From Betaproteobacteria bacterium (GTDB taxonomy: Bacteria; Pseudomonadota; Gammaproteobacteria; Burkholderiales; Casimicrobiaceae), in assembly GCA_003153475.1 (NCBI GenBank), contig PLYT01000016.1, positions 4,822-68,821 on the forward strand: DNA of 64,000 nucleotides, written 5' to 3'. This document shows positions 12,838 to 34,993 of this stretch, in pieces. The stretch's first letter is position 1; every line of letters starts with the position of its first letter. The notes below the pieces were generated by a model. That model worked only from the letters and a program-made list of their open reading frames with translations. It did no database searches and was not told where the DNA came from. A program made the position numbers and the translations under genes.

Positions 12838-14262
12838 TCAGTCGGGACGCGATTCGACAGGGCCCTCCGGCACCCGGACTACGTAGACGCTGCACGGTGC
12901 GTTCGCGGTGACGCTGGAGGCAACCGAACGCCACCATGCGAGGGCCCGCTCGGTTGGCCCCGGTGCCCCCAGGACGATCAGGTCGACGTGATTGGCTCGT
13001 GCCAGGTCGAGCAGCGTCGCCGTCGCATTGGCTGCCTCCACGACAAGGAGCGAAAGGCGCGACGAGGGCAGCTTCAGCGGTTCCACCCAGTGCCGCAGCC
13101 GGGTCTTGTGCTCGAGGTGCTTGCCGGAAGCGGTGTCGGCGTCGGCGGGTCCCTCGCCCAGCGGCGCCGCCCTGACCACCGATACGCACATCAGCCGAAA
13201 TTCGGGATTGAGCGCGACCAGCTGCCGCGTCGCCAACTGCAGTGACGGATGGCGCTCGTCGTCCGGATGCTCGGTATCCACTGCCACCATGATCACCGGT
13301 GCGCGTATTGCGATGTTTTGGCGCCGGCCGAGCGCATGGCGATCGCGACGCGACTGCCACCAGCGGGCGAACTGCGGGAAAAAACCAGCCCCCTCGGTCC
13401 GACCAGCACGCTCCGACAGCGTAACCTGCTCCGGATGGCGCAAGTCGAATGCGATCTGGGCTGCCGATTGGTAGCGCGCTGCAGCCACCGGTTCAAGGCA
13501 ACGCAGAATGATCTCCTGCAGCCAGGGAGGCACCCGTTCGTTCAGCGCACACGGCGGAAGGGGCTCGCGCCAGAGACGATCGCGCATGCCGGCGTAGGTC
13601 TGAGGTTCACCGAATGGCTGCGTGCCGGTGGCCAGCTCGAAGAGCAGCACGCCCAGGGCGAAGAGGTCGCTGCGCGGGTCGCTCCGATCGTTCTGCAACT
13701 GCTCGGGGGATACGTAGGCGGCCGAACCCGCCGCGAAATCCTTCGACTCGGCGAGCAGGTCGGGATAGCGCGCGTGCCTGGCGAAGCCGAAGTCGAGCAG
13801 CACGGCATCGCCGTTCGGACGCAACATGACATTCTCGGGCTTGAGATCCAGATGGATGACCTGTTGCGTGTGCACACTATGCACCGCGTCGGCAAGCGCC
13901 GAACCGACGCGCGCGACCTCCCCGGGCGGCAACGGGGCCTGCGCGATGATCTTCTCGAGACCTTCTCCGTCGATCCGTTCCATTACGATATAGGGCGTCG
14001 CGGTCAAATCTCCCGCTGCCACGAAGCGCGGCACCGACGGGCCGGTCAAGATCGGCACGATCATCTGCTCGATCTCGAAACTGTCGATGCCGATCGTGGG
14101 CTCACCAGGCCCCAGCGCCGGAGCCTTCATCACCATCGGAAAGCCCGGATCCCTTTCCGGCGGCGCAGTGACGCTGAAAATGTAGCCGGTCCCTCCCTTG
14201 TGCAGGCATTCACCGAGGCGGAAGCCGTCGATGGTCGCGCCGGGTTGCAGACGTTCCCGCAT
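12838..14262 (-). CDS. serine/threonine protein kinase fused to a universal-stress-protein domain
   Basis: N-terminal Hanks-type kinase: Gly loop HKGGTGYIF, catalytic Lys in VMKAPAL, catalytic loop HLDLKPENVM, DFGFA and an SPEQL P+1 segment, over about 290 residues. A UspA-like domain follows (about residues 315-470) with PVIMVAVD, LLVVEAANATATLLDLARANHVDLIVLGAPG and an SVTANAPCSVYVVR end. The chosen ATG removes a 27-residue extension that would overlap the phosphoesterase gene. Probably a cytosolic stress-signalling kinase; the fusion suggests nucleotide or stress sensing by the Usp domain. Confidence 0.85.
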   Translation of the reverse strand: MRERLQPGATIDGFRLGECLHKGGTGYIFSVTAPPERDPGFPMVMKAPALGPGEPTIGIDSFEIEQMIVPILTGPSVPRFVAAGDLTATPYIVMERIDGEGLEKIIAQAPLPPGEVARVGSALADAVHSVHTQQVIHLDLKPENVMLRPNGDAVLLDFGFARHARYPDLLAESKDFAAGSAAYVSPEQLQNDRSDPRSDLFALGVLLFELATGTQPFGEPQTYAGMRDRLWREPLPPCALNERVPPWLQEIILRCLEPVAAARYQSAAQIAFDLRHPEQVTLSERAGRTEGAGFFPQFARWWQSRRDRHALGRRQNIAIRAPVIMVAVDTEHPDDERHPSLQLATRQLVALNPEFRLMCVSVVRAAPLGEGPADADTASGKHLEHKTRLRHWVEPLKLPSSRLSLLVVEAANATATLLDLARANHVDLIVLGAPGPTERALAWWRSVASSVTANAPCSVYVVRVPEGPVESRPD

Positions 14263-14294
14263 GGATTCGAAAGGGGCGCCGCGAAAGGAGACAG

Positions 14295-15035
14295 TCAGAT
14301 GCCGAGTTCCACGCGACAGGCGAGCGACTCGGGCAAGCCGCATTTTCGGATGCGATCCGCCGCGACCATCGCATCATAGGGAACACGATAGAACGTCAGC
14401 TGCTCGCGTCCGCGGTCGAACAGCGTATAGGCTGCTGCCGGATTGCGATCGCGCGGCTGCCCGACCGATCCCACGATCGCTACCCAGCGTCGACGGCTGC
14501 GCACCGGGATCGGCGTCCCGGGAGTCGGGCGGAACTCGCACATTCGGCCGTTCGCGTCCTCGAAGTAGAGCAATTGATCGTGCACATGTCCACAGAACGT
14601 ATAGAGCGATTTGGCCGCCTCGGCGCAGCGTTTCGCCGCCGACGGACTGTCGATGTAGTCCCATCGTTCGGGAGACGCCGCCGACGCGTGGACATAACAC
14701 ACGGTTCCGTCGCGCGCCACGAGGGGCAGCGACGCCAGAAAGCGCTTCTGCTCGTCGCTGAGCGTCTGGCGCGCCCATTCGATGGCGGCGAGCGCAGCTT
14801 CGTTGAAGTACCCGGCGCTCTTTTCGACAGCCTGATCGTGGTTGCCCTTGAGCGCCACGGCGCCTTCCGCCGCGTACCGGATGACGATGTCGACGACGCC
14901 CCCTGGATCGGCCCCATAACCGACAAAATCCCCCAGGAAGGCGAAGCGCTGCGCACCATGCTCACCCGCGTGCCGCAGGCAAGCCGTCAGCGCCTCGGTG
15001 TTGGCGTGGATGTCGGACAACAGCGCAATGCGCAA
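14295..15035 (-). CDS. metallophosphoesterase (calcineurin-like)
   Basis: A 246-residue enzyme with all metallophosphoesterase motifs in order: DIHAN (8-12), GDFVGYG (35-41), GNHD (64-67), VHAS near 115 and GHVHDQ near 149. It belongs to the YfcE/diadenosine-tetraphosphatase-like group acting on phosphodiesters or phosphoprotein. It lies 32 bases upstream of the kinase-Usp gene on the same strand, so kinase and phosphatase may be one operon, possibly antagonists. Confidence 0.88.
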   Translation of the reverse strand: MRIALLSDIHANTEALTACLRHAGEHGAQRFAFLGDFVGYGADPGGVVDIVIRYAAEGAVALKGNHDQAVEKSAGYFNEAALAAIEWARQTLSDEQKRFLASLPLVARDGTVCYVHASAASPERWDYIDSPSAAKRCAEAAKSLYTFCGHVHDQLLYFEDANGRMCEFRPTPGTPIPVRSRRRWVAIVGSVGQPRDRNPAAAYTLFDRGREQLTFYRVPYDAMVAADRIRKCGLPESLACRVELGI

Positions 15036-15512: not shown

Positions 15513-17309
15513 GTGGATGTATTCAAGGCGGACGTTGCCATTGTCGGCGCCGGGGGTGCGGGGCTGCGCGCAGCCATCGCCGTGGCCGAGGCCGATCCAT
15601 CGCTGACCGTGGCGCTGATCTCCAAGGTCTACCCGATGCGAAGCCATACCGTCGCCGCCGAAGGCGGATCCGCCGGCGTGGTGCAGGCGAACGACAGCCT
15701 GCAACATCATTTCGACGACACCGTTACCGGCGGCGATTGGCTGTGCGAGCAAGACACCGTCGATTATTTCGTCGCCCATTGCGCCGAGGAGATGGTGCAG
15801 CTCGAGCATTGGGGATGCCCGTGGAGCCGCAAGGACGACGGCCATGTCGACATTCGCGCGTTCGGCGGGATGAAGATAGAGCGAACCTGGTTTGCTGCCG
15901 ACAAGACCGGGTTTCACATGCTGCATACGTTGTTCCAGACGTCGATCAAATACCCATCGATCAAGCGGTTCGACGAGCACTTTTGCTGCGATCTGATCGT
16001 CGACGACGGCCGCTGCCACGGCGTGTTGGCTATCGAGATCGGCACCGGCGAGTTCAGACTTATCCAGGCGAAGGCGGTCATCATCGCAACCGGTGGTGCA
16101 GGAAGGGTCTTCCGGCAAAACACCAACGGAGGCATCGTCACCGGCGACGGCATGGCGCTGGCGTACCGCTACGGCGTCCCGCTACGCGATATGGAGTTCA
16201 TCCAGTACCACCCGACCTGCCTGCCTGGAAGCGGACTGCTGATCACCGAGGCATGTCGCGGCGAAGGCGGCATCATGGTCAACAAGGACGGGCATCGCTA
16301 CCTGCAGGACTACGGCCTCGGCCCTGCCGATCCATGGCCGCGCAAGAAGGCGATGGAACTCGGCCCGCGTGATCGCCTGTGCCAGGCGTTCTGGCACGAA
16401 GAGCAGAACGGCCGCACCATCGCTACTGCGCAAGGGCAAGCGGTTCATCTCGACTTGCGCCATCTCGGGAAAGAGAAGCTGCACCAGCGTCTGCCGCAAA
16501 TCTGCGAGATGGCGGAGGCGTTCCTCGGCGTCGATCCTGTCTATGCGCCGATTCCGGTGCGTCCGGCAGTTCATTACACGATGGGTGGAATCCTGGTCGA
16601 CACCAAAACCGCTTCACCGCTGCCTGGCCTGTATGCAGCCGGCGAATGCTCGAGCATCGGCATCCACGGCGCCAACCGGCTCGGTTCGAACTCGCTCGCC
16701 GAACTATGCGTGTTCGGGAAGGTCGCGGGAAGCGAGGCGGCGCGATTTGCCAGGTCGATCGCTGCGGCCAATTCCACGACGATCGAAAGACAAGCCGACG
16801 CAGCGCGCCAGCGCGCGATGAACGTTGTGAGCCGGTCCAAGGGAAGTGAACGTATTTCTGTATTACGCAACGAAATGGCTCTCAGCATGGAGCGCGGTTG
16901 CGGCATCTATCGCACCGGACGCGACATGCAGGATACCTGCGATAAGATCGACGAGCTGAAGCTGCGCTACAGGGACGTCGAGGTCGGCGACAAGTCGAGC
17001 GTCTGGAATACAGAGTGGTTGCTCGCGATCGAGCTGGGCTATCTGCTCGATGTCGCACAGGCGATCGTCTATTCGGCGCTGAACCGCAAAGAGTCGCGTG
17101 GCGCGCACCAGCGTCTCGACGGCTTCGACCAGCGCGACGATGCGAACTACCTCAAGCACAGCCTGGCCCACTACGTTGACGCCGGCCCGCCGCGCATCGA
17201 CTACGGGCCGGTAGCAATCACCCGATCCCAACCCGGGACGCGTGCCTATGGCGCCGCCGGCGAGCAGGCAGAGCGGGACCGCAAGCGTGCCGGAGCGGCC
17301 CATGAATGA
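15513..17309 (+). CDS. frdA: fumarate reductase flavoprotein subunit
   Basis: A 598-residue flavoprotein catalysing fumarate reduction on the cytoplasmic side. FAD loop VGAGGAG (11-17); RSHTVAAEGGSAG supplies the His (45) that binds FAD covalently; His233 and Arg248 in HPTCLPGSG and CRGEGG are the catalytic positions; HGANRLGSNSL is the C-terminal signature. GTG start with GGGGAG upstream. Its stop overlaps frdB by eight bases. The small FrdC/FrdD anchors downstream identify fumarate reductase rather than Sdh. FNR-type boxes and the later rquA imply rhodoquinol as donor. Confidence 0.95.
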   Translation: MDVFKADVAIVGAGGAGLRAAIAVAEADPSLTVALISKVYPMRSHTVAAEGGSAGVVQANDSLQHHFDDTVTGGDWLCEQDTVDYFVAHCAEEMVQLEHWGCPWSRKDDGHVDIRAFGGMKIERTWFAADKTGFHMLHTLFQTSIKYPSIKRFDEHFCCDLIVDDGRCHGVLAIEIGTGEFRLIQAKAVIIATGGAGRVFRQNTNGGIVTGDGMALAYRYGVPLRDMEFIQYHPTCLPGSGLLITEACRGEGGIMVNKDGHRYLQDYGLGPADPWPRKKAMELGPRDRLCQAFWHEEQNGRTIATAQGQAVHLDLRHLGKEKLHQRLPQICEMAEAFLGVDPVYAPIPVRPAVHYTMGGILVDTKTASPLPGLYAAGECSSIGIHGANRLGSNSLAELCVFGKVAGSEAARFARSIAAANSTTIERQADAARQRAMNVVSRSKGSERISVLRNEMALSMERGCGIYRTGRDMQDTCDKIDELKLRYRDVEVGDKSSVWNTEWLLAIELGYLLDVAQAIVYSALNRKESRGAHQRLDGFDQRDDANYLKHSLAHYVDAGPPRIDYGPVAITRSQPGTRAYGAAGEQAERDRKRAGAAHE

Positions 17310-18054
17310 GACCCACAAAGTAATTGCGATCGAGGTTCTGCGCTACCGGCCGGAGCTGGACGAGAAGCCTTTTTTCCAGACCTATCAGGTTCCGTTCACG
17401 GAAGAGATGTCGGTGCTGCAGGGGCTGCTCTACATCAAGGACGAGCTCGACGGCACGCTCAGCTTCCGTTGGTCGTGCCGGATGGCGATTTGCGGCAGCT
17501 GCGGCGCAATGATTGACGGCGTCCCGATGCTCGGTTGCCATACCTTCCTGCGCGACTATTATCCGAACAAGGTACGCGTCGAACCGCTCGCCCATTTTCC
17601 GATCGAACGCGACCTGGTCGTAGGCGCGGATGACTTCATCGGCAAGCTTGAACGCATCAAGCCTTACATCGTCCCGAAGGAGCCCCGCACGCTTGCTGAA
17701 GGCGAATACTTGCAGACCCCGGCGCAACTCGAGCGGATCCTGCAATTCAGTTCGTGCATCAACTGCATGCTCTGTTACGCCGCTTGCCCCCAGTACGGCC
17801 TCGATCCGGCCTTCATCGGCCCGGGGGTGCTGGCGCTGCTGCATCGGTACAACGCCGACTCCAGAGACGCCGCCCGCGCCGACAGAATGCAGCTGGTCAA
17901 TGCCGAGGAAGGCGTCTGGAGCTGCACTGCCGTCGGCTATTGCTCCGAGGTCTGTCCGAAGGGAGTCGATCCGGCGAACGCCGTCAACCAGAACAAGACG
18001 GCAAGCGCGGCCGATTACTTCCTCCATTGGCTGCCCAAGGGAAGCGGGAAGTGA
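17302..18054 (+). CDS. frdB: fumarate reductase iron-sulfur subunit
   Basis: A 250-residue subunit with the [2Fe-2S] motif CRMAICGSCGAM plus the later Cys in LGCH, and the [4Fe-4S]/[3Fe-4S] motifs CINCMLCYAACP and CTAVGYCSEVCPKGVDP. Cluster order and length fit FrdB. The ATG lies within the end of frdA. It carries electrons from quinol to FrdA. Confidence 0.95.
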   Translation: MNETHKVIAIEVLRYRPELDEKPFFQTYQVPFTEEMSVLQGLLYIKDELDGTLSFRWSCRMAICGSCGAMIDGVPMLGCHTFLRDYYPNKVRVEPLAHFPIERDLVVGADDFIGKLERIKPYIVPKEPRTLAEGEYLQTPAQLERILQFSSCINCMLCYAACPQYGLDPAFIGPGVLALLHRYNADSRDAARADRMQLVNAEEGVWSCTAVGYCSEVCPKGVDPANAVNQNKTASAADYFLHWLPKGSGK

Positions 18055-18449
18055 GCGCGCGCCGCCCCTATATCCGCTCGATGGACGGGTGGTGGCGCCG
18101 AGACCCGTTCTTCATCCGCTACATGATCCGCGAAGCGACCGCACTGCTGGTCGTCGCCTATGCGGCGGTGTTGCTGCTGGGTGCGATTCGCCTCGCCCAG
18201 GGCGAGTCCGCGTACGAGCGATGGCTGGCGGCGCTGCGTAGCCCATGGTCGCTCGCATTTCATCTCGTGCTTTTCGCCGGCCTCGTCTATCACACGTGGA
18301 GCTGGTTCCAGATCGTGCCGAAAACGATGCCGTCGATTTCGGTCGGTGGCAAAAAGCTTCAGCCGGCGGTAATCACCGGGACCGGGCTTGTCGCCGCCGC
18401 CTTTGTGAGCCTCGTCCTCCTTCTCCTGCTGTTGTTCATCGGATCATGA
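18051..18449 (+). CDS. frdC: fumarate reductase membrane anchor subunit C
   Basis: A 132-residue protein starting with GTG that overlaps the frdB stop by four bases. RRPYIRSMDGWWRRDPFFIRYMIRE matches the FrdC N-terminus in type, including the Glu of the quinol site in YMIRE, and three membrane helices follow. No haem ligand pattern like that of SdhC is seen, as in E. coli Frd. With FrdD it forms the rhodoquinol/menaquinol site. Confidence 0.92.
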   Translation: MSARRPYIRSMDGWWRRDPFFIRYMIREATALLVVAYAAVLLLGAIRLAQGESAYERWLAALRSPWSLAFHLVLFAGLVYHTWSWFQIVPKTMPSISVGGKKLQPAVITGTGLVAAAFVSLVLLLLLLFIGS

Positions 18450-18802
18450 AGCGCTCGAATGCTCCGATCTTCTGGACCTTGTTCGGTGCCGGAGGAATGC
18501 TGTCGGCGTTGATCGGGCCGATGCTGGTGCTGATCACCGGCATCGCCGTTCCGCTCGGCTTCCTTCTGCCGGCCGATCTGATGAGTTACCCGCACATGCT
18601 CAAGTTCGCCCAGCATTGGGCGGGCAAGGCATTCACATTCGCCGTCGTGTCGCTGTTCTTGTGGCACGGAGTACATCGCATCTTCCACAGCCTGCACGAC
18701 TTGGGGCTGAAAACGGCGACCGGCGCGAAGCTTACTTGCTATGGCGTGGCCCTTCTGGGCACAGCGCTTGCGGCGTACTCGCTGCTTGTGATCGGGTTCT
18801 GA
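18446..18802 (+). CDS. frdD: fumarate reductase membrane anchor subunit D
   Basis: A 118-residue protein with three membrane helices; ATG overlaps the frdC stop (ATGA). The segment LWHGVHRIFHSLHDLGL is the FrdD signature. Length matches E. coli FrdD (119). Completes a four-gene frdABCD operon with all junctions overlapping. Confidence 0.92.
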   Translation: MKRSNAPIFWTLFGAGGMLSALIGPMLVLITGIAVPLGFLLPADLMSYPHMLKFAQHWAGKAFTFAVVSLFLWHGVHRIFHSLHDLGLKTATGAKLTCYGVALLGTALAAYSLLVIGF

Positions 18803-23431: not shown

Positions 23432-23451
23432 TCCTGCGTCGTCCGCGATCG

Positions 23452-24156
23452 ATGAGCAGCGCTCTCGCCTATGCGGCGGACCCGGCGGCCACGGTGCCCG
23501 TGCCCTCCTACCTGCAGGAATTCTACTGGTGGGCCTACGTCCATCCTTGGGCAGTGCGCACGTTCGAGCGCGGCTGGCTGGTCGATCTGATTCTCTTCGG
23601 CAACTATGAGCGGCTCCGCGACTCGGCGCTGGCCGAGATCCCGGCCTCGGGACGCACATTGCAGATCGCGTGCGTCTACGGAGACCTGACCGTGCGTCTG
23701 AGCGAACATCTCGCAGAAAACGGCGCTCTGGACGTCGTCGACGTCATGCCTATCCAGCTGCAGAATCTTGCGCGCAAGCTGCCTCGGGACTCCAAGACGC
23801 GCCTCATTCATCGCGACTCGACGGCGCTTGGCATTGCGGACGCAACCTATGACCAGGCACTGATCTTCTTTTTGCTGCACGAGCAGCCGTTGCCGGTCCG
23901 CCGCCGCACGCTGGCGGAAGCGATCCGTGTCGTGAAACCCGGCGGCAAGATCATTGTGCTCGATTACCACCGCCCGAATCGTCGGCACCCGTTACGGCGA
24001 CCGATGCGTGCGCTTTTGCGTCGACTCGAGCCATTCGCGCTGGACTTGTGGCAAAGCGAGCTCACCGAGTTTTTGCCGGCGGGCATCCCGCTGGCGGCGA
24101 TGCGAAAGCACACCTATTTCGGCGGCCTCTACCAGAAGGTCGTTCTCATCCGCTAA
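23452..24156 (+). CDS. rquA: RquA-type methyltransferase, rhodoquinone biosynthesis
   Basis: A 234-residue class I methyltransferase-fold protein. The RquA-characteristic segments are all present: VPSYLQEFYWWAYVHPWAVR, LVDLILFGNYERLRD, LQIACVYGDLTVRL, ALIFFLLHEQPLPVRRRTLAEA and TYFGGLYQKVV. RquA converts ubiquinone to rhodoquinone (amino for methoxy). It starts 20 bases after the oxidoreductase operon and so probably shares its FNR-controlled promoter. Together with frdABCD it supplies the low-potential quinone for fumarate respiration. Confidence 0.88.
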   Translation: MSSALAYAADPAATVPVPSYLQEFYWWAYVHPWAVRTFERGWLVDLILFGNYERLRDSALAEIPASGRTLQIACVYGDLTVRLSEHLAENGALDVVDVMPIQLQNLARKLPRDSKTRLIHRDSTALGIADATYDQALIFFLLHEQPLPVRRRTLAEAIRVVKPGGKIIVLDYHRPNRRHPLRRPMRALLRRLEPFALDLWQSELTEFLPAGIPLAAMRKHTYFGGLYQKVVLIR

Positions 24157-24236: not shown

Positions 24237-24250
24237 TTGATCTACATCAA
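24237..24250. promoter_or_regulatory. FNR/ANR-type box, distal, decaheme operon
   Basis: TTGATCTACATCAA: perfect TTGAT and ATCAA halves with a four-base spacer, the ideal FNR/ANR consensus. Confidence 0.7.
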
Positions 24251-24275: not shown

Positions 24276-24289
24276 TTGACCTTTGTCAA
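24276..24289. promoter_or_regulatory. FNR/ANR-type box, proximal, decaheme operon
   Basis: TTGACCTTTGTCAA: perfect TTGAC-N4-GTCAA palindrome, 39 bases from the first box. Confidence 0.65.
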
Positions 24290-24651: not shown

Positions 24652-25623
24652 ATGCTGCCCGTCCAAAAATTCGCCGCCTTGGGTGCGTTCATCGGCCTTT
24701 TCCTCGCAGGCTCGGTCGCGGCGGCGGATAACCCGCCAGCGGATACCGCGGCGCAAAAAGCGCTGGCCAAGGACGCCGTTTGCACCACCTGCCACAACGA
24801 AAGCTGGCGCGTACCGATTCTGTCGCTCTACCAGACGAAGCACGGCAACCGAGCGGATCCCAAGGCTCCAAACTGCCAGTCGTGCCACGGCCAAAGCACC
24901 GGCCACCAGCAAGATCCTGCGGGCGTGCATCCGGAAGTTGTTTTCGGCGTTAAATCCAAGAACGTATCGTCGGCCGAGGACCGGAATGGAACCTGCCTGG
25001 GCTGTCACAAGACCGGCCTTCGCATGCACTGGTCCGGCAGCGAGCACGAGAGTCGGGATGTGTCCTGCAGCAATTGCCATACGGTGCACATTGCGAACGA
25101 CCCGGTTCTGTCCAAGGCGACCCAACCCGAGGTCTGTTACGCCTGCCACAAGACACAGCGCGCGCAAACGCACCGGATCTCGACCCACCCGATCTTGGCC
25201 GGCAAGATGGCGTGCTCGGACTGCCACAACCCACACGGCTCGACGGGGCCGAAGTTGCTGGTCAAGAACTCGGTCAACGAGACCTGCTACACCTGTCACG
25301 CGGAAAAGCGCGGCCCCTTCCTGTGGGAACACAGCCCGGTCGTCGACGACTGCACGAACTGCCATACGCCGCACGGCTCGACCAACGCGCCACTGCTCAA
25401 GGCGCGCGTGCCGTGGCTATGCCAGGAATGCCACAGCGGCGACCATGGTGCGGCGATAAACAGCGGAGCGAATCTGCTGAACGGCAACGCGACGACGATC
25501 AACGGCATGCTGCCGCCGGCGAATCAGAGCCCGCGCACGCAGACGAACGCGCGTGCCTGCCTCAACTGTCACGTGCTGATCCACGGGTCGAACCATCCGG
25601 CGGGCGCGAAATTCCAGCGGTAG
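24652..25623 (+). CDS. decaheme c-type cytochrome, MtrA/DmsE/PioA-like
   Basis: A 323-residue periplasmic protein with a signal peptide ending near AGSVAAA and exactly ten CxxCH motifs (CTTCH, CQSCH, CLGCH, CSNCH, CYACH, CSDCH, CYTCH, CTNCH, CQECH, CLNCH). Length and heme number match MtrA/DmsE (about 330 residues), which thread through an outer-membrane barrel to carry electrons between periplasm and cell surface. GGGAG precedes the ATG. The next gene, 24 bases away, encodes the matching barrel. Regulated, by sequence, through two FNR-type boxes. Confidence 0.92.
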   Translation: MLPVQKFAALGAFIGLFLAGSVAAADNPPADTAAQKALAKDAVCTTCHNESWRVPILSLYQTKHGNRADPKAPNCQSCHGQSTGHQQDPAGVHPEVVFGVKSKNVSSAEDRNGTCLGCHKTGLRMHWSGSEHESRDVSCSNCHTVHIANDPVLSKATQPEVCYACHKTQRAQTHRISTHPILAGKMACSDCHNPHGSTGPKLLVKNSVNETCYTCHAEKRGPFLWEHSPVVDDCTNCHTPHGSTNAPLLKARVPWLCQECHSGDHGAAINSGANLLNGNATTINGMLPPANQSPRTQTNARACLNCHVLIHGSNHPAGAKFQR

Positions 25624-25647
25624 CGATAGCGAATCGGGGAGCATGAC

Positions 25648-28320
25648 ATGAAGACCAAGAACGACAGTTTTGCGGTCCGGGCGTTGGTCGTCGCGGTGCG
25701 AGCAGGGCTGATCGCCCTGGCGGCGATGTCGGCAGCCCAGGCAGCCGAGAGCGACGATGCCGCGCGTCAGCTGACGCAGCCGACCAGCGTCGTCGAAGTG
25801 GGCGCCGGGTATGTCAGCCAGGATTCGTTCAAGTTCGGCGAGTACAACGGCCTGTTCAAACAAGGTTTGTACGGCATCTTCAACTTCGATGTGCGCGGCG
25901 GTGGAAGCTACGATAGCGGCGACGCGACGCGGTGGCGTGCGACCGGCACCGATCTCGGGCTGGACACGCGTGACGTATCCGCCGAGTACGAACAGCAAGG
26001 CAAATTCCGGGTCAACTTCGACTACGACGAGTTGCGGCGAAACCGCTCCGACACCTATCAGACGCCTTATCTGGGGGCGGGCTCCGATACGCTGACGCTG
26101 CCTTCCAATTGGCTCAAGCCTATCGTCCCGCAGGTCAGCGGCACGGCCATCAATTTCCGCGCGCTGTCGCCGACGACCGGCCTCGCCTCGGCGATCGTCG
26201 GGGGCGTCGTAACGCGGCCGACCGCCGCCCAGCAGACGACGGTCAACAACATCATTGCCGCCGACCTTCCGGACTTCAACAACGTCGATCTCGATACCAT
26301 CCGCAAGACCATCAAGGGTGGATTCAGCTACAGCATCGATTCGCGCTGGGAGTTCAAGGCCAGCGCACAGCACGAGAAAAAGGAAGGGCTGAAACCGATG
26401 GGCGCGGTGAGCTCGCAGGTCAGCGAATACGCCACCATCCTCGTCGACCCGATCGATCAGACCACCGATCAATACAACGCAAGCCTGACCTACACCGGAG
26501 AGAATTCCTTCATGCAGGTCGCGTACTACGGGTCGGTATTCAAGAACGATATTTCCTCGCTGACGTGGCAGGATGCAAACGACCCGACCAAGACGGCGAC
26601 GTTGAGCAGCGCGCCGAGCAATAGTTTCCACCAGATCCTTCTGACGGGCGGCTACAATTTTTCGCCAACCACCAAGCTGGTCGTGAACGGATCCTACGGG
26701 CGCAACACCCAGAACGAAGCTTTTGTCACCAACGGACAGAACAACCAGTTCCCGCTGGGTCTGCCCGCGTCATCGCTCGACGGGCTGGTCGTAACGACGG
26801 CGTTCAACGCCAAGCTCACCGCCAAGCCGATCAAGGATCTCAGCCTGGTCGCCGGCTACAAGTACGACGACCGCGACAACCGCACCCCGGTGAACACGTA
26901 TTTCTTCCAGGATGCGAACGAAACGAAGGCCGCATCGGCTTCCGCCTTCAACGCTGCGCTCGGCCTGCCGGCTAACACCCTGGGCAGCAACATCGACATC
27001 TATGCCAATCGGCCTTACAGCAAGAAGGTCAACCAGTTCGACGTCGACGCCGATTACGCCGTGGCCAAGGGGCAGAGGCTCCAGGGCGGCTACGAATACC
27101 AGCAGATCGATCGCGAATGCAACGGTTCGTGGATCAATTGCGCCGATGCGCCGAGGACCCGCGAAAGCACGCTCAGGGCCGAATGGCGCGCCAACGTGGT
27201 CGAGAACCTCAGCGGAAGGGTTGCGTATGCGTATTCCGAGCGGCGGGTCAACTACGACGAGAATGCGTTCCTGTCGCTGGTTCCGATGGCCAACGTCGTG
27301 CCCGCGGGCGGGGCGACAGTCAGTGCCTACCAGTATCTGCTGCAGACTGGATTGACCGGCTTCGGGCCCGTCGCCGGCTTTCCCTCCTCACCACTCAGCG
27401 GCAACGCGGCGATCTTCTCTCCCAGCAATAACATGCTGCCGCAGGCGCTCTACGCCAGCCGCAACAACATCAACGAAGAGGTCGGCATGAGGCGGTTCAA
27501 CATGGCCGACCGAAATCGCAACAAGGTGCGCGGGTCGGTCAACTGGGATGCGAGCGACAACGTCTCGTTGCAGGGCAGTTTGGACTATAACAAGGACGAT
27601 TACAACAATTCGATCTACGGCCTGAAGAATGCAGAGAGCTTAGCCTTGAACCTCGAGGGCAATTACTCCATCACCAGCGACTTTGCCGCCCAGGCGTTTT
27701 ACTCGCACGAAGACTTTCAGTCGCAGGGTGCGGGCATTTCGTACGGGTCCAACAGCAACACCGCTTTTGTCGGTCAGGCCGGCAACACGATCGTGTCCGG
27801 CGGTTGCTTTTCGAGCGTGCTGGACAAGAACTCCAACGCCAAGATCGATCCGTGTCTGAACTGGTCGACCGACATGCGCGACAAGGTCGATACCTTGGGA
27901 GCCGGCTTCAAGTACAAGAACCTGATGGGAGGCAGACTGGATGTGACGGGTGATCTGGTCTACACCTACGCGCGCACCGATGTCGGCGTCGCGGGCGGGT
28001 CCTATGCCAACAACCCATTCGCCCTGGCGTCGCCGGCGCCGGCGCTGGCGCCCGGAGTACCGGCGGTGTTCTTCATCCCCGCCGCCAATATGCCCACGGC
28101 GACAACCAAGACGATCGATTTGCGACTCGGTGGCCAGTATGCGATCGACAGAGTGTCGTCGGTTCGGGTGCTCTACTGGTATCAGCACCTGCGGTCCAAT
28201 GATTACGTCTACGACGGCATGCAATTCGGAACGCTGACCAACGTGATCCCCACCAATGAACAGCCGTTCAACTACAACGTGCACGTCATCGGGGTCAGCT
28301 ACATCTATAGCTGGCGGTAA
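25648..28320 (+). CDS. MtrB/PioB-family outer-membrane beta-barrel protein
   Basis: An 890-residue protein with signal peptide (cut near SAAQAAE) and alternating strands throughout (repeated Y/F-x-Y with N/D turns), ending in aromatic strand YIYSWR. Length exceeds MtrB (about 700) and is nearer PioB/MtoB forms. No N-terminal CxxC as in Shewanella MtrB is present; the only close Cys pair (CNGSWINC, about residues 491-498) is in a loop. It should form the sheath for the preceding decaheme cytochrome. A strong terminator follows. Confidence 0.88.
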   Translation: MKTKNDSFAVRALVVAVRAGLIALAAMSAAQAAESDDAARQLTQPTSVVEVGAGYVSQDSFKFGEYNGLFKQGLYGIFNFDVRGGGSYDSGDATRWRATGTDLGLDTRDVSAEYEQQGKFRVNFDYDELRRNRSDTYQTPYLGAGSDTLTLPSNWLKPIVPQVSGTAINFRALSPTTGLASAIVGGVVTRPTAAQQTTVNNIIAADLPDFNNVDLDTIRKTIKGGFSYSIDSRWEFKASAQHEKKEGLKPMGAVSSQVSEYATILVDPIDQTTDQYNASLTYTGENSFMQVAYYGSVFKNDISSLTWQDANDPTKTATLSSAPSNSFHQILLTGGYNFSPTTKLVVNGSYGRNTQNEAFVTNGQNNQFPLGLPASSLDGLVVTTAFNAKLTAKPIKDLSLVAGYKYDDRDNRTPVNTYFFQDANETKAASASAFNAALGLPANTLGSNIDIYANRPYSKKVNQFDVDADYAVAKGQRLQGGYEYQQIDRECNGSWINCADAPRTRESTLRAEWRANVVENLSGRVAYAYSERRVNYDENAFLSLVPMANVVPAGGATVSAYQYLLQTGLTGFGPVAGFPSSPLSGNAAIFSPSNNMLPQALYASRNNINEEVGMRRFNMADRNRNKVRGSVNWDASDNVSLQGSLDYNKDDYNNSIYGLKNAESLALNLEGNYSITSDFAAQAFYSHEDFQSQGAGISYGSNSNTAFVGQAGNTIVSGGCFSSVLDKNSNAKIDPCLNWSTDMRDKVDTLGAGFKYKNLMGGRLDVTGDLVYTYARTDVGVAGGSYANNPFALASPAPALAPGVPAVFFIPAANMPTATTKTIDLRLGGQYAIDRVSSVRVLYWYQHLRSNDYVYDGMQFGTLTNVIPTNEQPFNYNVHVIGVSYIYSWR

Positions 28321-28345
28321 GACAGCATCCAGGGTCAGGGGGGGC

Positions 28346-28377
28346 GCGGGGGCGAGAGTTCGCCCCCGCTTCTTTTT
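28346..28377 (+). terminator. rho-independent terminator after the MtrB-like gene
   Basis: A perfect 10-base GC-rich stem (GCGGGGGCGA ... TCGCCCCCGC) around a GAGT loop, followed by TTCTTTTT. It separates the decaheme-barrel operon from the hexaheme operon. Confidence 0.85.
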
Positions 28378-28417
28378 GTCGAAGACTCGTGCAACGACCG
28401 CTTCCCGACTCTCGCAG

Positions 28418-28431
28418 TTGATCTGCGTCAA
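28418..28431. promoter_or_regulatory. FNR/ANR-type box upstream of the hexaheme operon
   Basis: TTGATCTGCGTCAA, TTGAT-N4-GTCAA, 122 bases before the hexaheme start and directly after the terminator, so it marks a new promoter. Confidence 0.65.
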
Positions 28432-28553
28432 CGCGTCGCACGTTCAATCCGGGCAAAGTATGCCCAACGATGCAACGGAGTCGAAGCATCATGCGAATGC
28501 TTCCCTGAAGGCAGTCGGCGAGAGCGCGCCCGGGCCACTGGCAAGACCAACTC

Positions 28554-29588
28554 ATGCCCAAGCATATCAGCCGGCTCATCATCCTCCTGGTGACCTTCGG
28601 CGCAGCGGCATATGCAGCCAAGGTTTTTTTCACTGCAGATTCGTTCTACGCCTACGGTCACTACCGGGGTAAATCCGTTGCGGAAATCGCCTCCGACAAG
28701 CCGAAGTACAAGGGCTCGGAATATTGTCAGTCGTGTCACGCCGAGCGCTACGCAGAGTGGTCCAAAGGCGTGCATCACAGCGTCGAGATCGGCAAGGTCG
28801 TCCAATGCGAAGTCTGTCATCAAGCCGCCGGAGGCAGGGACGCAGGTGGCATGTTCCAGCATGTAGCTACCGGTATTGACCATCCCGCCAGCGGCAAGCT
28901 ACCGGTGCCGACCGACAGCCTGAAACTGTGCCCGCTTTGCCATGAAAAGATGCCGGGCCGGCCCGCGGAGCAGCGTCAGATCGTTATCGCGACACATGCG
29001 GGAACGCAGCAGTGCACTGCCTGCCATAACCCGCACTCGCCCAGGATGATCGTCGTCGCCGGTGCGGCCGCGGGGCAAGCGGAAACCGGCGCAATGGGAA
29101 AAGCGGCAATCTGCGCTGGTTGTCACGGTGGCGAGGGCGTCAGCGTCAACCCGGTGTGGCCGAACCTTGCCGGACAGCACAGCGCGTATCTGGTCGACGC
29201 CCTCAAAGCGTACCGGACCGGCGCGCGACAGAGCGCCATGATGTCCGCAACCGCCGCGGGCTTGAGCGACGCCGACATCCAGAGCCTGTCCGATCATTAC
29301 GCCGCCATGAAGCTCAAGGTCGCCGCCTCCGCTGCCGGGTCAGCGAGCGCGGCTGCCGGCAAGGCGAAGGCCGACACTTGCGCAACTTGCCATGGCGCGG
29401 AAGGCGTCAGCGGCAATCCGGCATGGCCGAGTCTCGCCGGACAGCAAAAGGACTACCTGGTCGGCGCGCTGAAGGCCTATCAGGAAGGCGTCCGGAAAAA
29501 CGAGATCATGGCCGGGATGGCAAAAGGCTTGAGTGACGCCGACATCGATGCGCTGGCGACGTATTACTCGAGCGCGACCGTCCATTGA
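28554..29588 (+). CDS. membrane-anchored hexaheme c-type cytochrome
   Basis: A 344-residue protein with an N-terminal uncleaved-looking helix (LIILLVTFGAAAYAAKVFF) and six CxxCH motifs: CQSCH, CEVCH, CPLCH and CTACH in a multiheme domain (to about residue 165), then CAGCH and CATCH in two tandem class I cytochrome c domains with WPNLAGQH/WPSLAGQQ repeats. The first part resembles cytochrome subunits of Qrc/ACIII-type complexes. With the following ferredoxin and NrfD genes it likely exchanges electrons between quinones and periplasmic cytochromes. Confidence 0.85.
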   Translation: MPKHISRLIILLVTFGAAAYAAKVFFTADSFYAYGHYRGKSVAEIASDKPKYKGSEYCQSCHAERYAEWSKGVHHSVEIGKVVQCEVCHQAAGGRDAGGMFQHVATGIDHPASGKLPVPTDSLKLCPLCHEKMPGRPAEQRQIVIATHAGTQQCTACHNPHSPRMIVVAGAAAGQAETGAMGKAAICAGCHGGEGVSVNPVWPNLAGQHSAYLVDALKAYRTGARQSAMMSATAAGLSDADIQSLSDHYAAMKLKVAASAAGSASAAAGKAKADTCATCHGAEGVSGNPAWPSLAGQQKDYLVGALKAYQEGVRKNEIMAGMAKGLSDADIDALATYYSSATVH

Positions 29589-29626
29589 GGCCGAGCCTGT
29601 AGCAACCGGCCGGGAGCTCGCCACAA

Positions 29627-30460
29627 ATGAAAAAACGAACTTATCAGCGTAAGGAAACACGCCGCGAGTTTCTGCGCTTCTTCGGGAGCGCCGTCGCGTG
29701 CGCAGGAGCCGCCATGGCGGTCAAGGCAGTGGTGCCCGAGGCTCACGCGGCGACGGGCCCGACCCCGCCTCCCGCCATACCGGGTTACGACTGGACGCAA
29801 CACCGGTGGGGATTCGGCGTCGACGCCACCAAGTGCATCGGATGCCTTCGTTGCGTCGAAGCGTGCAAGCGCGAGAACGATGTCGCCGCGGACGCGCATC
29901 ATTTCAGGACGTGGGTGGAGCGGTACGTCTACCTCGAGGGTGAAGACAAGCCGCGCATCGACAGCCATCACGACCCGGTGAACATCGAAGCCTCGGGATC
30001 GGAAGGAGAATACCGCTTCGCCAATCGGTACAAGGATGCGAAGGTGGAAAAGGCCTTCTTCGTGCCCAAGCTGTGCAACCACTGCACCCATCCAGCCTGT
30101 GTCCAGGTGTGTCCCACCGGTGCAACCTACAAGACCGAAGATGGCGTAGTGCTCATCGATCACAACTACTGCATAGGTTGCCAGTATTGCGTGCAGGCTT
30201 GTCCTTACGGCGCGCGTTTCTTCAACGAGCGCAAGCAAGTTACCGATAAATGCACCTGGTGCTATCACCGGATCACCAAAGGCCTGCAGCCCGCCTGCGT
30301 CGAGGTTTGTCCGGTCGGCGCGCGCATTTTCGGAGATCTCAAAGACAAGCAGAGTCCGATCAGCCAATTCATCCGCAACAACCGGACCTACGTCCTCAGA
30401 CCCGAATCCGGCAATGCTCCGAACGTCTACTACGTCGGCATCGACAAAGACGTCGTCTGA
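29627..30460 (+). CDS. Tat-exported ferredoxin subunit with four [4Fe-4S] clusters (NrfC/DmsB/QrcC-like)
   Basis: A 277-residue protein. A twin-arginine signal (ETRREFLRFFG, residues 11-21) implies folded export to the periplasm. Four cluster motifs follow: CIGCLRCVEAC, CNHCTHPACVQVCPTG, CIGCQYCVQACPYG and CTWCYH with CVEVCPVG. This is the usual electron-wire subunit beside NrfD-type membrane proteins. Its TGA overlaps the next ATG. No catalytic molybdopterin subunit is encoded nearby, so it probably links the NrfD-like protein to the hexaheme cytochrome. Confidence 0.9.
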   Translation: MKKRTYQRKETRREFLRFFGSAVACAGAAMAVKAVVPEAHAATGPTPPPAIPGYDWTQHRWGFGVDATKCIGCLRCVEACKRENDVAADAHHFRTWVERYVYLEGEDKPRIDSHHDPVNIEASGSEGEYRFANRYKDAKVEKAFFVPKLCNHCTHPACVQVCPTGATYKTEDGVVLIDHNYCIGCQYCVQACPYGARFFNERKQVTDKCTWCYHRITKGLQPACVEVCPVGARIFGDLKDKQSPISQFIRNNRTYVLRPESGNAPNVYYVGIDKDVV

Positions 30461-31638
30461 TGAATACACTTTTTGAAGCGATGCCGTTCACTGGCTACGT
30501 CTATCCCAACGAGACGGTCCTTGCCTGGACGGTGCTGATCGTCGTCTACCCTTACCTTACCGGGCTGGTCGCCGGCGCATTCACGGTATCGAGCCTCTAC
30601 CAGGTGTTCGGCATGCAGCGATTCAAGCCGGTCGCGCACCTGGCCTTGCTCACCTCGCTTTGCTGCATGCTGGTCGTCCCGACGCCGCTGCTGCTGCATC
30701 TCGGGCATCCGGAGCGCGCGTTGAACGCGGTCATCACGCCCCACACGACGTCCGCATTTGCGATTTTCGGCTATGCGGCGGGGTTTTACGCCATCCTCCT
30801 GATACTGGAAAACTGGTTCGTCTTCCGACCGCACATCGTGCAGCAGGCGCAACGAAAGAAGGGGCCGCTCGGGTGGTTCTATCGGGTATTGTCGCTCGGA
30901 TCCTACGATCTGTCCGAAAAGGCGATGCGGTACGACCGGAAGTGGATCTTTGCGCTGGCCGTCATCGGCATACCTGCGGCGCACGGGCTGCACGGCTATG
31001 TGGGATTTGTCTTCGGTTCGCTCAAGTCGCGTGAATGGTGGTCGTCCGATCTCATGCCTGCGGTCTTTCTTTTCTCGGCGATAATTTCCGGCACCGCGCT
31101 GTTGATCGTGCTCTACGTCGTCTCATGCCGGCTGCGCAAGGTCCCCGTGGATCTACCCTGCCTGAAGGGCATGGCGTACACGCTCTGGGGCTTCATGATG
31201 TTCACCCTGCTGCTGGAAGGCGTCGAATTCGCGAGTCTCGTCTATAGGGGACGAGAGGGGATCGAAATGATCATGGAATACGTGAAGGGTCCGCTCATCG
31301 TGCCATTCGCCGTATTGCAATTCGGGGTGGGATCGCTGCTGCCGTTGCTGGTGCTTTCGTTCATGATCTGGCGCGGCATCACCGGCAAGGTGCTGGTCGC
31401 AGGCGTTGCGGCGAGCGCCTTTCTGGTATTGTTCGCGGTCCTGATGATGCGCTGGAACGTGGTCATTGGCGGACAGGAGATCGCGAAGACGGGTAAGGGC
31501 CTGCTGGAGTATCATCCGCTTGTTTTCGGCCGCGAGGGTATTTTGGCGGCGGTTGCGGTGGTGACGGCGCCATTTGTGCTTTTGTCGCTGATGGTCCGGC
31601 TTTTCCCTCCATGGGCCCACGACGCGAAAACCGCGTGA
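30460..31638 (+). CDS. NrfD/PsrC/QrcD-like integral membrane quinone-interacting subunit
   Basis: A 392-residue polytopic protein with about ten hydrophobic helices. HLGHPERALNAV near residue 80 is the conserved NrfD-family quinone-site segment, and GIPAAHGLHGYVG and LLEGVEFASLVYRG are later family marks. It binds quinol/quinone in the inner membrane and partners the four-cluster ferredoxin encoded one base upstream. The third member, the hexaheme cytochrome, precedes both. Confidence 0.9.
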   Translation: MNTLFEAMPFTGYVYPNETVLAWTVLIVVYPYLTGLVAGAFTVSSLYQVFGMQRFKPVAHLALLTSLCCMLVVPTPLLLHLGHPERALNAVITPHTTSAFAIFGYAAGFYAILLILENWFVFRPHIVQQAQRKKGPLGWFYRVLSLGSYDLSEKAMRYDRKWIFALAVIGIPAAHGLHGYVGFVFGSLKSREWWSSDLMPAVFLFSAIISGTALLIVLYVVSCRLRKVPVDLPCLKGMAYTLWGFMMFTLLLEGVEFASLVYRGREGIEMIMEYVKGPLIVPFAVLQFGVGSLLPLLVLSFMIWRGITGKVLVAGVAASAFLVLFAVLMMRWNVVIGGQEIAKTGKGLLEYHPLVFGREGILAAVAVVTAPFVLLSLMVRLFPPWAHDAKTA

Positions 31639-31753
31639 AGGACGCACCCTTGGTTGAATTGATCGACGGTGCCCGCAATAATCGCGGGTGTCGGCGCGGC
31701 CGATCATCGGGTGTGCATGGTGGATGCCCATGGCGACACGGGAGGGAAAGTCG

Positions 31754-32989
31754 ATGAAGCGAAGTACCCGCGCTTTTTCTGTTGTTGCGTTCACCCTTGC
31801 CGCAGCAATTGCGGCGAGCGCGGGATACACCCCATCCGCGGGAGCCCAAGGCGTCAAGGGCAACGCCGGCGCTGACGACGATCTGCGAGCCGTTTACGCG
31901 AACGCCGGCGATGTTGTGGATGGCAAACGCATCGCCGAAGGGACGTGCGCAGGCTGCCACGGCGTGCTCGGCATCAGCAAGCTCCCGGGCGTGCCTCATC
32001 TGGCTGGTCAGCGGCCCGCTTATCTCTATCTCGAGCTCAGGGCCTACCAATCCGGCGCTCGTGCCGACAGTGCGATGGGCAACACCGTCAAGCCTCTCAA
32101 CGACAGCGCGCTGGTCAAGGTGGCCGCATACTATGCGAGCCTCGACCCGCCGCAACCGTCGGCGGCAAGTGGCAAACAGGCTTCCGCCAAGCCTGACCCG
32201 GTTCAGGCCGGAAAGACTGCCGCTTCGGCGTGTGCCGGCTGTCATGGCGACGCCGGCATCAGCAAGATCCCCGGCACGCCCAGCCTGGTTGGACTCGATC
32301 CGAAATATCTCGTCGCCGCGATGAAGGCGTACAAGAGCGGCCAGCGCAAGAACGACACGATGAAATCGATGCTGGCCGCGGTCGCCGATGTGGATCTCAG
32401 CAACATCGCCCTCTACTACGCGCTCCAAAAACCAGCAAGGGCGCCAACGCCGGCGGCGGGCGACCAGGCGGCCGGAAAGACTGCCGCTGCGGCTTGTGCG
32501 GGTTGCCATGGGGATAAAGGCGTCAGCACGAATCCGTCGATTCCCAGCGTGGCCGGACAGGATGCCGAGTACCTTGCGTCCGCGCTGCGTGGATATAAAG
32601 ACGGCTCGCGCGCCGATGAAACGATGACGGGCCTGGCAGCGTCGCTCGACGAATCGTCTGCCAAGAACCTTGCAGCCTTTTACGCGAATCTGCCACCTCA
32701 GCCCACGAACGTGCGGAAACCTCTGACCACGGCCGAATGGGCGCAGCGGTGCGACCGCTGCCATGGCGTTTCCGGCAACAGTACCGATCCGCGTTTGCCG
32801 ACGTTGGCATCCCAGCGCGTCGACTATCTGGACAAAGTCCTGCACGCATACCGGACAGGCGAGCGCAAGAGCCCGCAGATGGCGGCAATGTCGGAGGGAC
32901 TCACGGAAGGAGACGTCGAAAATCTCGCGGACTACTACGCCCACCAGAAGGCCCGCGCCGTCGTATTCATCCCGCTGCCCGCCAAGTAG
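31754..32989 (+). CDS. tetraheme cytochrome c with four tandem class I domains
   Basis: A 411-residue exported protein (signal peptide to about SAGAQG) built from four c553/c4-like domains, each of about 90-100 residues with CxxCH, a P-x-LAGQ-like loop, a GxRxxxxM methionine ligand region and an L/I-A-x-Y-Y end. Heme motifs are CAGCH three times and CDRCH in the last, most divergent domain (which has LASQ in place of LAGQ). GGAGGGAAAG precedes the ATG. Probably a periplasmic wire spanning from the membrane complex to other acceptors. Confidence 0.9.
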   Translation: MKRSTRAFSVVAFTLAAAIAASAGYTPSAGAQGVKGNAGADDDLRAVYANAGDVVDGKRIAEGTCAGCHGVLGISKLPGVPHLAGQRPAYLYLELRAYQSGARADSAMGNTVKPLNDSALVKVAAYYASLDPPQPSAASGKQASAKPDPVQAGKTAASACAGCHGDAGISKIPGTPSLVGLDPKYLVAAMKAYKSGQRKNDTMKSMLAAVADVDLSNIALYYALQKPARAPTPAAGDQAAGKTAAAACAGCHGDKGVSTNPSIPSVAGQDAEYLASALRGYKDGSRADETMTGLAASLDESSAKNLAAFYANLPPQPTNVRKPLTTAEWAQRCDRCHGVSGNSTDPRLPTLASQRVDYLDKVLHAYRTGERKSPQMAAMSEGLTEGDVENLADYYAHQKARAVVFIPLPAK

Positions 32990-33035
32990 GCAGGCACTGC
33001 CGGGACCGATAACCTGACTTTTAAGGAGTAACGAC

Positions 33036-33347
33036 ATGAAACGCTTGCTGTTGACTGCGACACTTTGCGGACTGTTCGGCGTATTCGGCGCCGCTCACGC
33101 GGCGGGAGACGCACAGGCGGGCAAGGCCAAGGCCGCCACGTGCGCAGGCTGCCATGGAGCCAATGGCGAGGGTAAGAAGCCCTACCCCGCGCTGGCAGGC
33201 AAGAGCGAAAGCGAGATCGTGCAGGCACTGCAGGACTACAAGTCCGGCAAGCGCGCGAATCCGATCATGAAGTCGTTCGCGACGTCGCTGAGCGATCAGG
33301 ACATGGCCAACGTGGCTGCGTACTACGCGTCGCTCAAGGCGAAGTGA
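33036..33347 (+). CDS. monoheme class I cytochrome c (c553-like)
   Basis: A 103-residue periplasmic cytochrome with signal peptide (to AHA), heme motif [14 protein letters not shown] loop, Met ligand in NPIMKSFA and the VAAYYAS terminal helix. Strong TAAGGAGT ribosome site. Homologous in pattern to each repeat of the preceding tetraheme protein; likely a diffusible electron carrier. Confidence 0.92.
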
Positions 33348-33444
33348 CCGCCGCGCGGGTCCACGTGCGGAGCCGCACCCACCCTAAACGCGTGAGCTGC
33401 GGCTTCGAGCCGCGCGCCAGCGCCCGCGACCAGAGGAACCGACC

Positions 33445-34236
33445 ATGAGCGATGCCCCGCTGCACAGGCTTTATCGTCATTATTCCGAGCTGCCGTACAG
33501 CCAGCGCGTGCTGTATACGATGACGCTGCTCGTGCTCGGGCTCGGTTATCTGTTCGCCCTGATCTATCTGTTTCATACGTACGCGGGCCGGGCCGGCGGC
33601 AACCCGATGATGCTGTCGTACAACGATATCCTCACCGCTTACACCGGCAGCGGCAAGGGATCGCGGCTCGAATCGGCGCTGCGTGGGCCGATGTCGACGA
33701 TGCTGCCACGCGACGAGGCGAGCATGCTGATCACGTGGGTGCACGACGGCGCCGACCGCGCCAAATACGACACCGATATCAAGCCCCTGCTCGACCAGCG
33801 CTGCATGGCCTGCCATGACGGCAGCAACCCGCATATTCCGAACCTGAACGGATACGACAACCTCAAGAAAGTGACGGAACAGGACACGGGTGAAGATGTG
33901 TTCACGCTGGTGCGCGTCTCGCATATCCACCTGTTCGGACTGACGTTCATCTTCTTCATCATGGGCCTGATGTACAGCCATGCCTACGTGCGGCCCGTCT
34001 GGTTCAAGTGCACGGTGGTGGCAGTGCCGTTCGTCGCGGTGATCATGGACATCAGTTCGTGGTATCTCACCAAGCTGTACCATCCTTTTGCCTGGGTCGT
34101 GATGATCGCTGGAGGATTGATGGGAATGTCCTTCGCCTTCATGTGGCTCGTGACGATGTACCAGCTTTGGTTCTCTCCACCACCCCCAGCCGTCATGCAG
34201 AGAGTGGACGGCGAGAATATTCCAAACGTCGGCTGA
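33445..34236 (+). CDS. integral membrane protein with one c-type heme motif
   Basis: A 263-residue protein: an N-terminal helix (about 22-45), a periplasmic loop with CMACH (about residues 117-121), then three or four helices. The helices carry His residues in positions that could bind haem b (SHIHLFG, MYSHAYV, YHPFAWV). I do not recognise a named family. Its place inside the cytochrome operon suggests a membrane-bound electron-transfer or quinone-linked subunit. Confidence 0.75.
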   Translation: MSDAPLHRLYRHYSELPYSQRVLYTMTLLVLGLGYLFALIYLFHTYAGRAGGNPMMLSYNDILTAYTGSGKGSRLESALRGPMSTMLPRDEASMLITWVHDGADRAKYDTDIKPLLDQRCMACHDGSNPHIPNLNGYDNLKKVTEQDTGEDVFTLVRVSHIHLFGLTFIFFIMGLMYSHAYVRPVWFKCTVVAVPFVAVIMDISSWYLTKLYHPFAWVVMIAGGLMGMSFAFMWLVTMYQLWFSPPPPAVMQRVDGENIPNVG

Positions 34237-34318
34237 TGGCAGAACGACTCGACATCCGCAAACCGTGCGACTTCGACACGCGAAACCGGAAGGCACTGCC
34301 GCGCGCGACCCGGAAAAC

Positions 34319-34993
34319 ATGAAAGTACTTATGAGGATTCGCGCAAAGATGCGTTGCCCCCTTGCGGCCGCACGCACATACACTGCGTTGCCGCTCATTC
34401 TCGCGATGGCAGCATGCATCGCCTCGCAACAGGCCGCAGCGCAGAATACCGAAAGAAGCGGCAAGGAGGTCGTCGACAGCGTGTGCGTCGCCTGTCATGG
34501 TACCGGAGCTCACGGTGCGCCGAAGATAGGCAACAAGAAAGCCTGGGCCAAGCTCGCATCGCGGGGCCTCACCGGTCTTTCCAAGAATGCGCTCAACGGC
34601 ATTCGGCAAATGCCTCCGCATGGCGGCAACCCCACGCTCACCGATACCGAGATCGAGCGCGCAATCACCTACATGGTCAACCAGTCGGGCGGCCACTGGA
34701 ACGAGCCCGTCAGCCGCACGGTCAAGGCACCCGAGCGCAGCGGCGAGCAGATCGTTCAGATGCAGTGCTCCAAATGCCACAGGGATGGCGTCGGCGGCGC
34801 GCCCCGGATAGGCGATCGCAGCGCATGGATACCACGGCTCAAGCAGGGGCTCGATGTCGTCGTCCGCTCGGCCATCAATGGCCACGGCGGCATGCCGGCC
34901 CGAGGCGGCATGGCGAATCTCACCGACGCCGAGCTGCGCAGCGCGATCATCTACATGTTCAACAGGGATACCGTTCCCCCGAAAGCCCCTTAG
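34319..34993 (+). CDS. diheme cytochrome c (c5/c555-like, two domains)
   Basis: A 224-residue exported protein with two c5-type domains. The first has CVACHGTGAHGAPKIG and Met in IRQMPPHGG; the second has CSKCHRDGVGGAPRIG and Met in GGMPARGGM. Domain spacing and the GAPxIG loops fit cytochrome c5. Starts at 34319, 34331 or 34349 are all possible; the ribosome site is weak. Last cytochrome of the main block. Confidence 0.85.
   Translation: MKVLMRIRAKMRCPLAAARTYTALPLILAMAACIASQQAAAQNTERSGKEVVDSVCVACHGTGAHGAPKIGNKKAWAKLASRGLTGLSKNALNGIRQMPPHGGNPTLTDTEIERAITYMVNQSGGHWNEPVSRTVKAPERSGEQIVQMQCSKCHRDGVGGAPRIGDRSAWIPRLKQGLDVVVRSAINGHGGMPARGGMANLTDAELRSAIIYMFNRDTVPPKAP

Follow-up and report, generated by a model that had tools for sequence, protein, structure and literature searches.

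We describe a gene cluster that probably encodes, taken as a whole, an anaerobically induced route of extracellular electron transfer from the inner-membrane quinone pool to the cell surface, with net flow most likely outward. The cluster comprises nine genes, called as open reading frames on the same (+) strand at positions 24652-34993 of the window, by which we mean the entire 64,000-nt stretch of DNA analyzed. Their products carry 24 CxxCH heme motifs, located in an MtrA-like protein (10), a hexaheme cytochrome (6), and the cytochromes cyt4 (4), cyt1 (1), TMcyt (1), and cyt2 (2). A preliminary description had listed a hexaheme cytochrome, a four-cluster Tat ferredoxin, an NrfD-like protein, and four further cytochromes next to an MtrA/MtrB-like pair, with 24 heme motifs in all, and each of these elements is present. 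It had also proposed a complete quinone-to-cell-surface route of a type not recognized. The route remains the best reading, with MtrB/PioB and the NrfD module co-occurring across genomes, while the claim of an unrecognized type goes too far: the system is most likely of a recognizable kind, a Nrf/Net-type quinone module joined to an MtrAB conduit lacking MtrC.

The cluster encodes an MtrAB conduit without MtrC

The first gene (24652-25623, +) encodes an MtrA/MtoA/PioA-like decaheme periplasmic cytochrome with ten CxxCH motifs, which scores 289 bits against the DmsE-family decaheme model TIGR03508 (cut-off 192) and matches chain A of the S. baltica MtrCAB structure 6r2q (E 3e-74). It is followed by an MtrB/PioB outer-membrane barrel of 890 aa, free of CXXC motifs (25648-28320, +), which exceeds the cut-offs of PF11854 (506 bits) and TIGR03509 (485 bits) and matches chain B of the same structure (E 7e-46). 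By sequence, both are unambiguous members of their families, confirming the pair seen in the preliminary description.

An MtrC-like surface cytochrome had been reported absent, and indeed no OmcA/MtrC-family protein (TIGR03507) was found in the cluster or in the source genome, which is 73.6% complete. In a tree of 45 MtrA sequences, the MtrA of the window falls in a ten-sequence group (support 95/98) in which no MtrC was found beside MtrA; because the flanks are just ~1.5 kb long at several of the loci, an MtrC may lie further out. The tree contains no reference MtoA or PioA, and the clade can thus be named neither Mto nor Pio.

A hexaheme-FeS-NrfD module as candidate quinone site

The hexaheme gene (28554-29588, +) encodes a protein with an N-terminal hydrophobic helix as its anchor and six heme motifs, all invariant among 39 homologous sequences. 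In a fold search with a predicted structure of middling quality (pLDDT 74), its C-terminal half matched diheme cytochrome c4 structures (E 5e-11 to 2e-9), and the protein reached 76 bits, below cut-off, against the PdsA model. Because of the invariant motifs, the c4 fold match, and the sub-cut-off PdsA match, the hexaheme as modeled is a fusion of a quinone-side tetraheme part with a shuttle-like c4/PdsA-like diheme. The cluster has no separate pentaheme NrfB-like subunit, NrfB equivalog models scoring far below cut-off. At 15 of 80 loci (e.g., L026:7295-8104 and L034:6405-7265), the hexaheme gene is preceded by a rhodanese-like double-domain protein.

The next gene (29627-30460, +) encodes a Tat-exported Fe-S protein of the NrfC/PsrB/DsrO type, with a twin-arginine signal (TRREFLRFF) and four cysteine clusters; family models place it with PsrB/NrfC, and it matches chain B of 2vpw (E 2e-44). 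The third is an NrfD-family integral membrane protein (30460-31638, +; PF03916, 128 bits), the proposed quinone site, which had no sequence match among solved structures and whose orthologs in Alpha- and Betaproteobacteria mostly show 59-84% identity. Distant NrfD and Fe-S homologs (38-47% identity) occur in Nitrospirae MAGs (L079, L080, L081), with an MtrA-like protein nearby in L081.

The cluster therefore has the NrfC-like Tat Fe-S protein and NrfD of a Net/Nrf-type module and lacks the catalytic molybdopterin subunit in the operon that would mark a Psr/Ttr/Dms molybdoenzyme complex. As described earlier, neither a molybdopterin subunit nor a terminal reductase was found among the genes of 24652-34993. 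Elsewhere in the window (44785-48784), molybdenum-hydroxylase-like genes, recognized by sequence only (large and 2Fe-2S subunits), accompany a triheme cytochrome and are unrelated to the cluster.

The remaining cytochromes belong with MtrAB

Family models assign three of the four downstream genes to class I cytochromes: the four-domain cyt4, which contains a PdsA-like diheme twice (31757-32989, +), the small monoheme cyt1 (33036-33347, +), and the diheme cyt2 (34319-34993, +). TMcyt (33445-34236, +) is a membrane monoheme protein with four predicted membrane helices and no named family. Pfam and NCBIfam searches gave no match for it, a fold search with its model (pLDDT 85) gave no confident structural match, and a profile search of solved structures returned one weak match spanning the heme-motif stretch. 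It is very highly conserved, with 53-90% identity in 32 relatives, and it was absent from the plasmid collection searched. Three invariant histidines, H160, H162, and H179, lie in or beside the membrane helices and could be b heme ligands.

A natural comparison is offered by a congener (G004, L138:4347-11464) that carries MtrA-MtrB-cyt4-cyt1-TMcyt-cyt2 in the same order as the window without hexaheme-FeS-NrfD. No NrfD ortholog was found in its genome, and the genes flanking the operon are similar to those for a kinase and phosphatase at window positions 12838-15035. Since exactly the three module genes are lacking, the quinone module is exchangeable, having been either gained in the lineage of the window or lost in the congener; the cytochromes that the congener keeps with MtrAB therefore belong with the conduit.

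The NrfD module co-occurs with MtrB across genomes

A search for the gene order across genomes supports the proposed route. The NrfD ortholog set covers 80 loci, all from named genomes and in most cases from MAGs of Beta- and Alphaproteobacteria, and within the retrieved stretches we found the Fe-S protein at 75 of these loci, the hexaheme at 68, cyt4 at 44, TMcyt at 41, an MtoC/CbcL-like protein at 32, and MtrAB at 13. Most loci are incomplete, and the 13 with MtrAB show varied arrangements in both Alpha- and Betaproteobacteria; at one of the 80 loci (L072), two MtrAB pairs flank the module, one on each side, within 19 kb. Many module loci have no MtrAB inside 10 kb, and these may have it elsewhere or may rely on a different partner.

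At the genome level, MtrB/PioB is encoded in 44 of the first 50 genomes with an NrfD ortholog versus 33 of the 243 relatives that lack it (Fisher p 1e-24). This enrichment must be read in light of the different taxonomic makeup of the two sets. Among 249 relatives, 6 carry an NrfD ortholog and 37 MtrB; within this set alone, MtrB is found in 4/6 with the module and 33/243 without (p 0.005). The plasmid collection yielded only distant NrfD proteins and one weak match for MtrB.

FNR-type boxes precede both parts of the cluster

FNR boxes (TTGAYNNNNRTCAA) are abundant in the window, with 13 at no more than one mismatch versus 3.7 expected, 9 of them exact. As noted in the preliminary description, matching boxes precede both parts of the cluster: a motif scan placed two exact boxes (24237-24250 and 24276-24289, +) ~360-400 bases 5' of the mtrA start codon and another upstream of the hexaheme gene (28418-28431, +). 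Further boxes lie before frd (15276) and near hemN and an anaerobic ribonucleotide reductase gene. Across loci, an exact box lies no more than 300 bases 5' of the hexaheme gene in 17/52 and of mtrA in 9/40, against a background of ~3%, while cyt4 (1/44) and TMcyt (3/44), which served as negative controls in the same scan, stay near background.

A rhodoquinone biosynthesis gene adjoins the cluster

Directly left of the cluster, and probably a separate transcription unit, lies a gene for RquA, the rhodoquinone biosynthesis methyltransferase (23440-24156, +; NF038261, 289 bits, cut-off 175). The gene, which the preliminary description had not picked up, is preceded by fumarate reductase genes (15513-18802, +; FrdA, FrdB, and FrdD recognized) and by 2-oxoacid:ferredoxin oxidoreductase genes. 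RquA exceeds the cut-off in 21 of the 50 module genomes versus 14 of the 243 relatives without the module (p 6e-10, for the same taxonomically different sets). In 6/50 genomes (G264, G268, G274, G276, G281, and G285), the gene and MtrB are at most 15 kb apart on one contig, and L040, L046, and L062 each have it on the contig of the NrfD module. In L158 and L046, a single contig holds MtrA-MtrB-MtrC-MtrC, TMcyt, cyt4, hexaheme-FeS-NrfD, MtoC, Frd, and RquA in 28 kb. A Ramlibacter MAG (L152:1014-11479) has mtrC-mtrA-mtrB-small cytochrome-rquA-frdA-frdB-frdD consecutively, which links the frd genes that accompany mtrCAB with rquA.

Menaquinone genes were not found in 40 genomes: MenD was over cut-off in none and MqnA/MqnD (PF02621) in none, control genomes being positive. 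We tentatively propose that in menaquinone-free proteobacteria rhodoquinone is the low-potential quinone from which an NrfD or MtoC module feeds MtrAB, and that the frd passengers of betaproteobacterial mtrCAB may be part of an rquA-frd unit. With rquA in only 21 of the 50 module genomes, rhodoquinone cannot be the general partner. A genome of the same family (G030) carries an rquA-frd-2-oxoacid oxidoreductase cluster with no MtrAB beside it; the rquA-frd unit thus also exists independently, and its adjacency in the window could partly reflect shared anaerobic control.

The position of frdABCD beside betaproteobacterial mtrCAB was reported previously, and its authors suggested heme supply or bidirectional flow (PMC8805035); rquA is not mentioned in the text of that paper. 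A literature search for rhodoquinone with extracellular electron transfer returned unrelated papers only, and the association of rquA with the conduit appears to be previously unnoted. It gives an explanation for frd beside mtrCAB that does not invoke heme supply, and it builds a case, open to testing, for rhodoquinone as a support of extracellular respiration.

Proposed route and direction of electron flow

We infer the assembly of the complex, its location, the quinone used, and the direction of flow as follows. NrfD and the Tat Fe-S protein would exchange electrons with the inner-membrane quinone pool, probably not menaquinone and rather ubiquinone or, likely under anaerobic conditions, RquA-made rhodoquinone. 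The Fe-S protein would pass electrons to the anchored hexaheme, through its tetraheme part and on to the built-in c4/PdsA-like diheme, from which the soluble four-domain, diheme, and monoheme cytochromes would cross the periplasm. The outer membrane would be crossed by MtrA inside MtrB, with no MtrC cap. Net flow would most likely be outward, with Fe(III), humics, or a partner as the respiratory electron acceptor, although the route may also run inward.

Direction is where the closest alternative lies. The chain could instead oxidize Fe(II) or another surface donor and, by way of high-potential c4-like cytochromes, supply an oxidase or enzymes of denitrification, with some electrons driven uphill to quinone by NrfD, as in Mto/Pio-like systems. 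Inward flow is favored by the missing MtrC, found neither in the window and the 73.6% complete source genome nor adjacent to MtrA in its ten-sequence clade, and by the c4-type cytochromes, including the c4 fold in the C-terminal half of the hexaheme. Class I His/Met cytochromes usually have high potentials and would suit inward flow too. MtoAB/PioAB also provide a precedent (PMC5566968). We nevertheless regard electron uptake as unlikely: the cluster shares its FNR boxes with genes for fumarate reductase, HemN, and anaerobic ribonucleotide reductase, rquA and frd adjoin it, several related module-bearing genomes do encode MtrC, and the Net system is a reductive precedent. FNR control is still compatible with Fe(II) oxidation under anaerobic or microaerobic conditions, and it is this control alongside frd, rquA, and anaerobic genes, together with the Net precedent, that favors outward flow.

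A more distant alternative is that hexaheme-FeS-NrfD works with an internal enzyme of the periplasm, a reductase or oxidase, and adjoins MtrAB through shared anaerobic regulation only. The Nrf, Ttr, Psr, and Dsr modules whose family models are matched here serve such enzymes, the module frequently has no MtrAB within reach, and the congener retains MtrAB and its cytochromes without it. Against this, the module and MtrB co-occur strongly at the genome level, its recurrent neighbors are cytochromes of extracellular electron transfer, including MtoC/CbcL-like ones, and the cluster has no catalytic subunit, which makes an internal role improbable. An outward route to the cell surface therefore remains our preferred explanation.

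Comparison with known systems

In Aeromonas hydrophila, the experimentally tested Nrf-family NetBCD and the diheme shuttle PdsA feed MtrCAB (Conley et al., 2018, cited in PMC8805035 and PMC9012536). As far as these citing accounts describe it, this system has in common with the window a Nrf-family quinone module (multiheme, Fe-S, NrfD), a PdsA-like diheme shuttle, MtrA, and MtrB. The window differs in having no MtrC, in a tetraheme-c4 fusion that replaces the separate NrfB-like protein and PdsA, in its extra cytochromes and TMcyt, and in that the carriers searched yielded no menaquinone genes.

MtrC-less MtrAB conduits are known from Sideroxydans, Gallionella, and Rhodopseudomonas as MtoAB/PioAB (PMC5566968). 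The window shares this type of conduit but lacks PioC or a quinone protein of the MtoC/CymA type, the proposed quinone site being the NrfD module; neither the cluster nor the source genome gave an MtoC-like match. In PCC4, an Fe-S protein and a membrane protein accompany another kind of porin-cytochrome set, and PCC4 subgroup II resembles the window in its porin, periplasmic multihemes, pfam13247-type Fe-S protein, conserved inner-membrane protein, and absence of an extracellular cytochrome; its porin type is described as distinct from MtrAB, which sets it apart by description (PMC5566968). These three precedents are why the type could not be called unrecognized. CbcL, MtoC, and MtrH (PMC6295460) are likewise quinone-active cytochromes of extracellular electron transfer, and CbcL/MtoC homologs lie beside the module in 32/80 loci, but they belong to a different protein family and are absent from the window.

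A literature search across 5.4 million papers found none combining MtoA, MtoB, and NrfD. The kind of system is known, and what is added here is the variant, its spread, the modular exchange revealed by the congener, and the link to rquA. Altogether, many uncultured alpha- and betaproteobacteria, with no menaquinone genes in the genomes searched, can now be added to the organisms with Nrf-type feeding of Mtr conduits.
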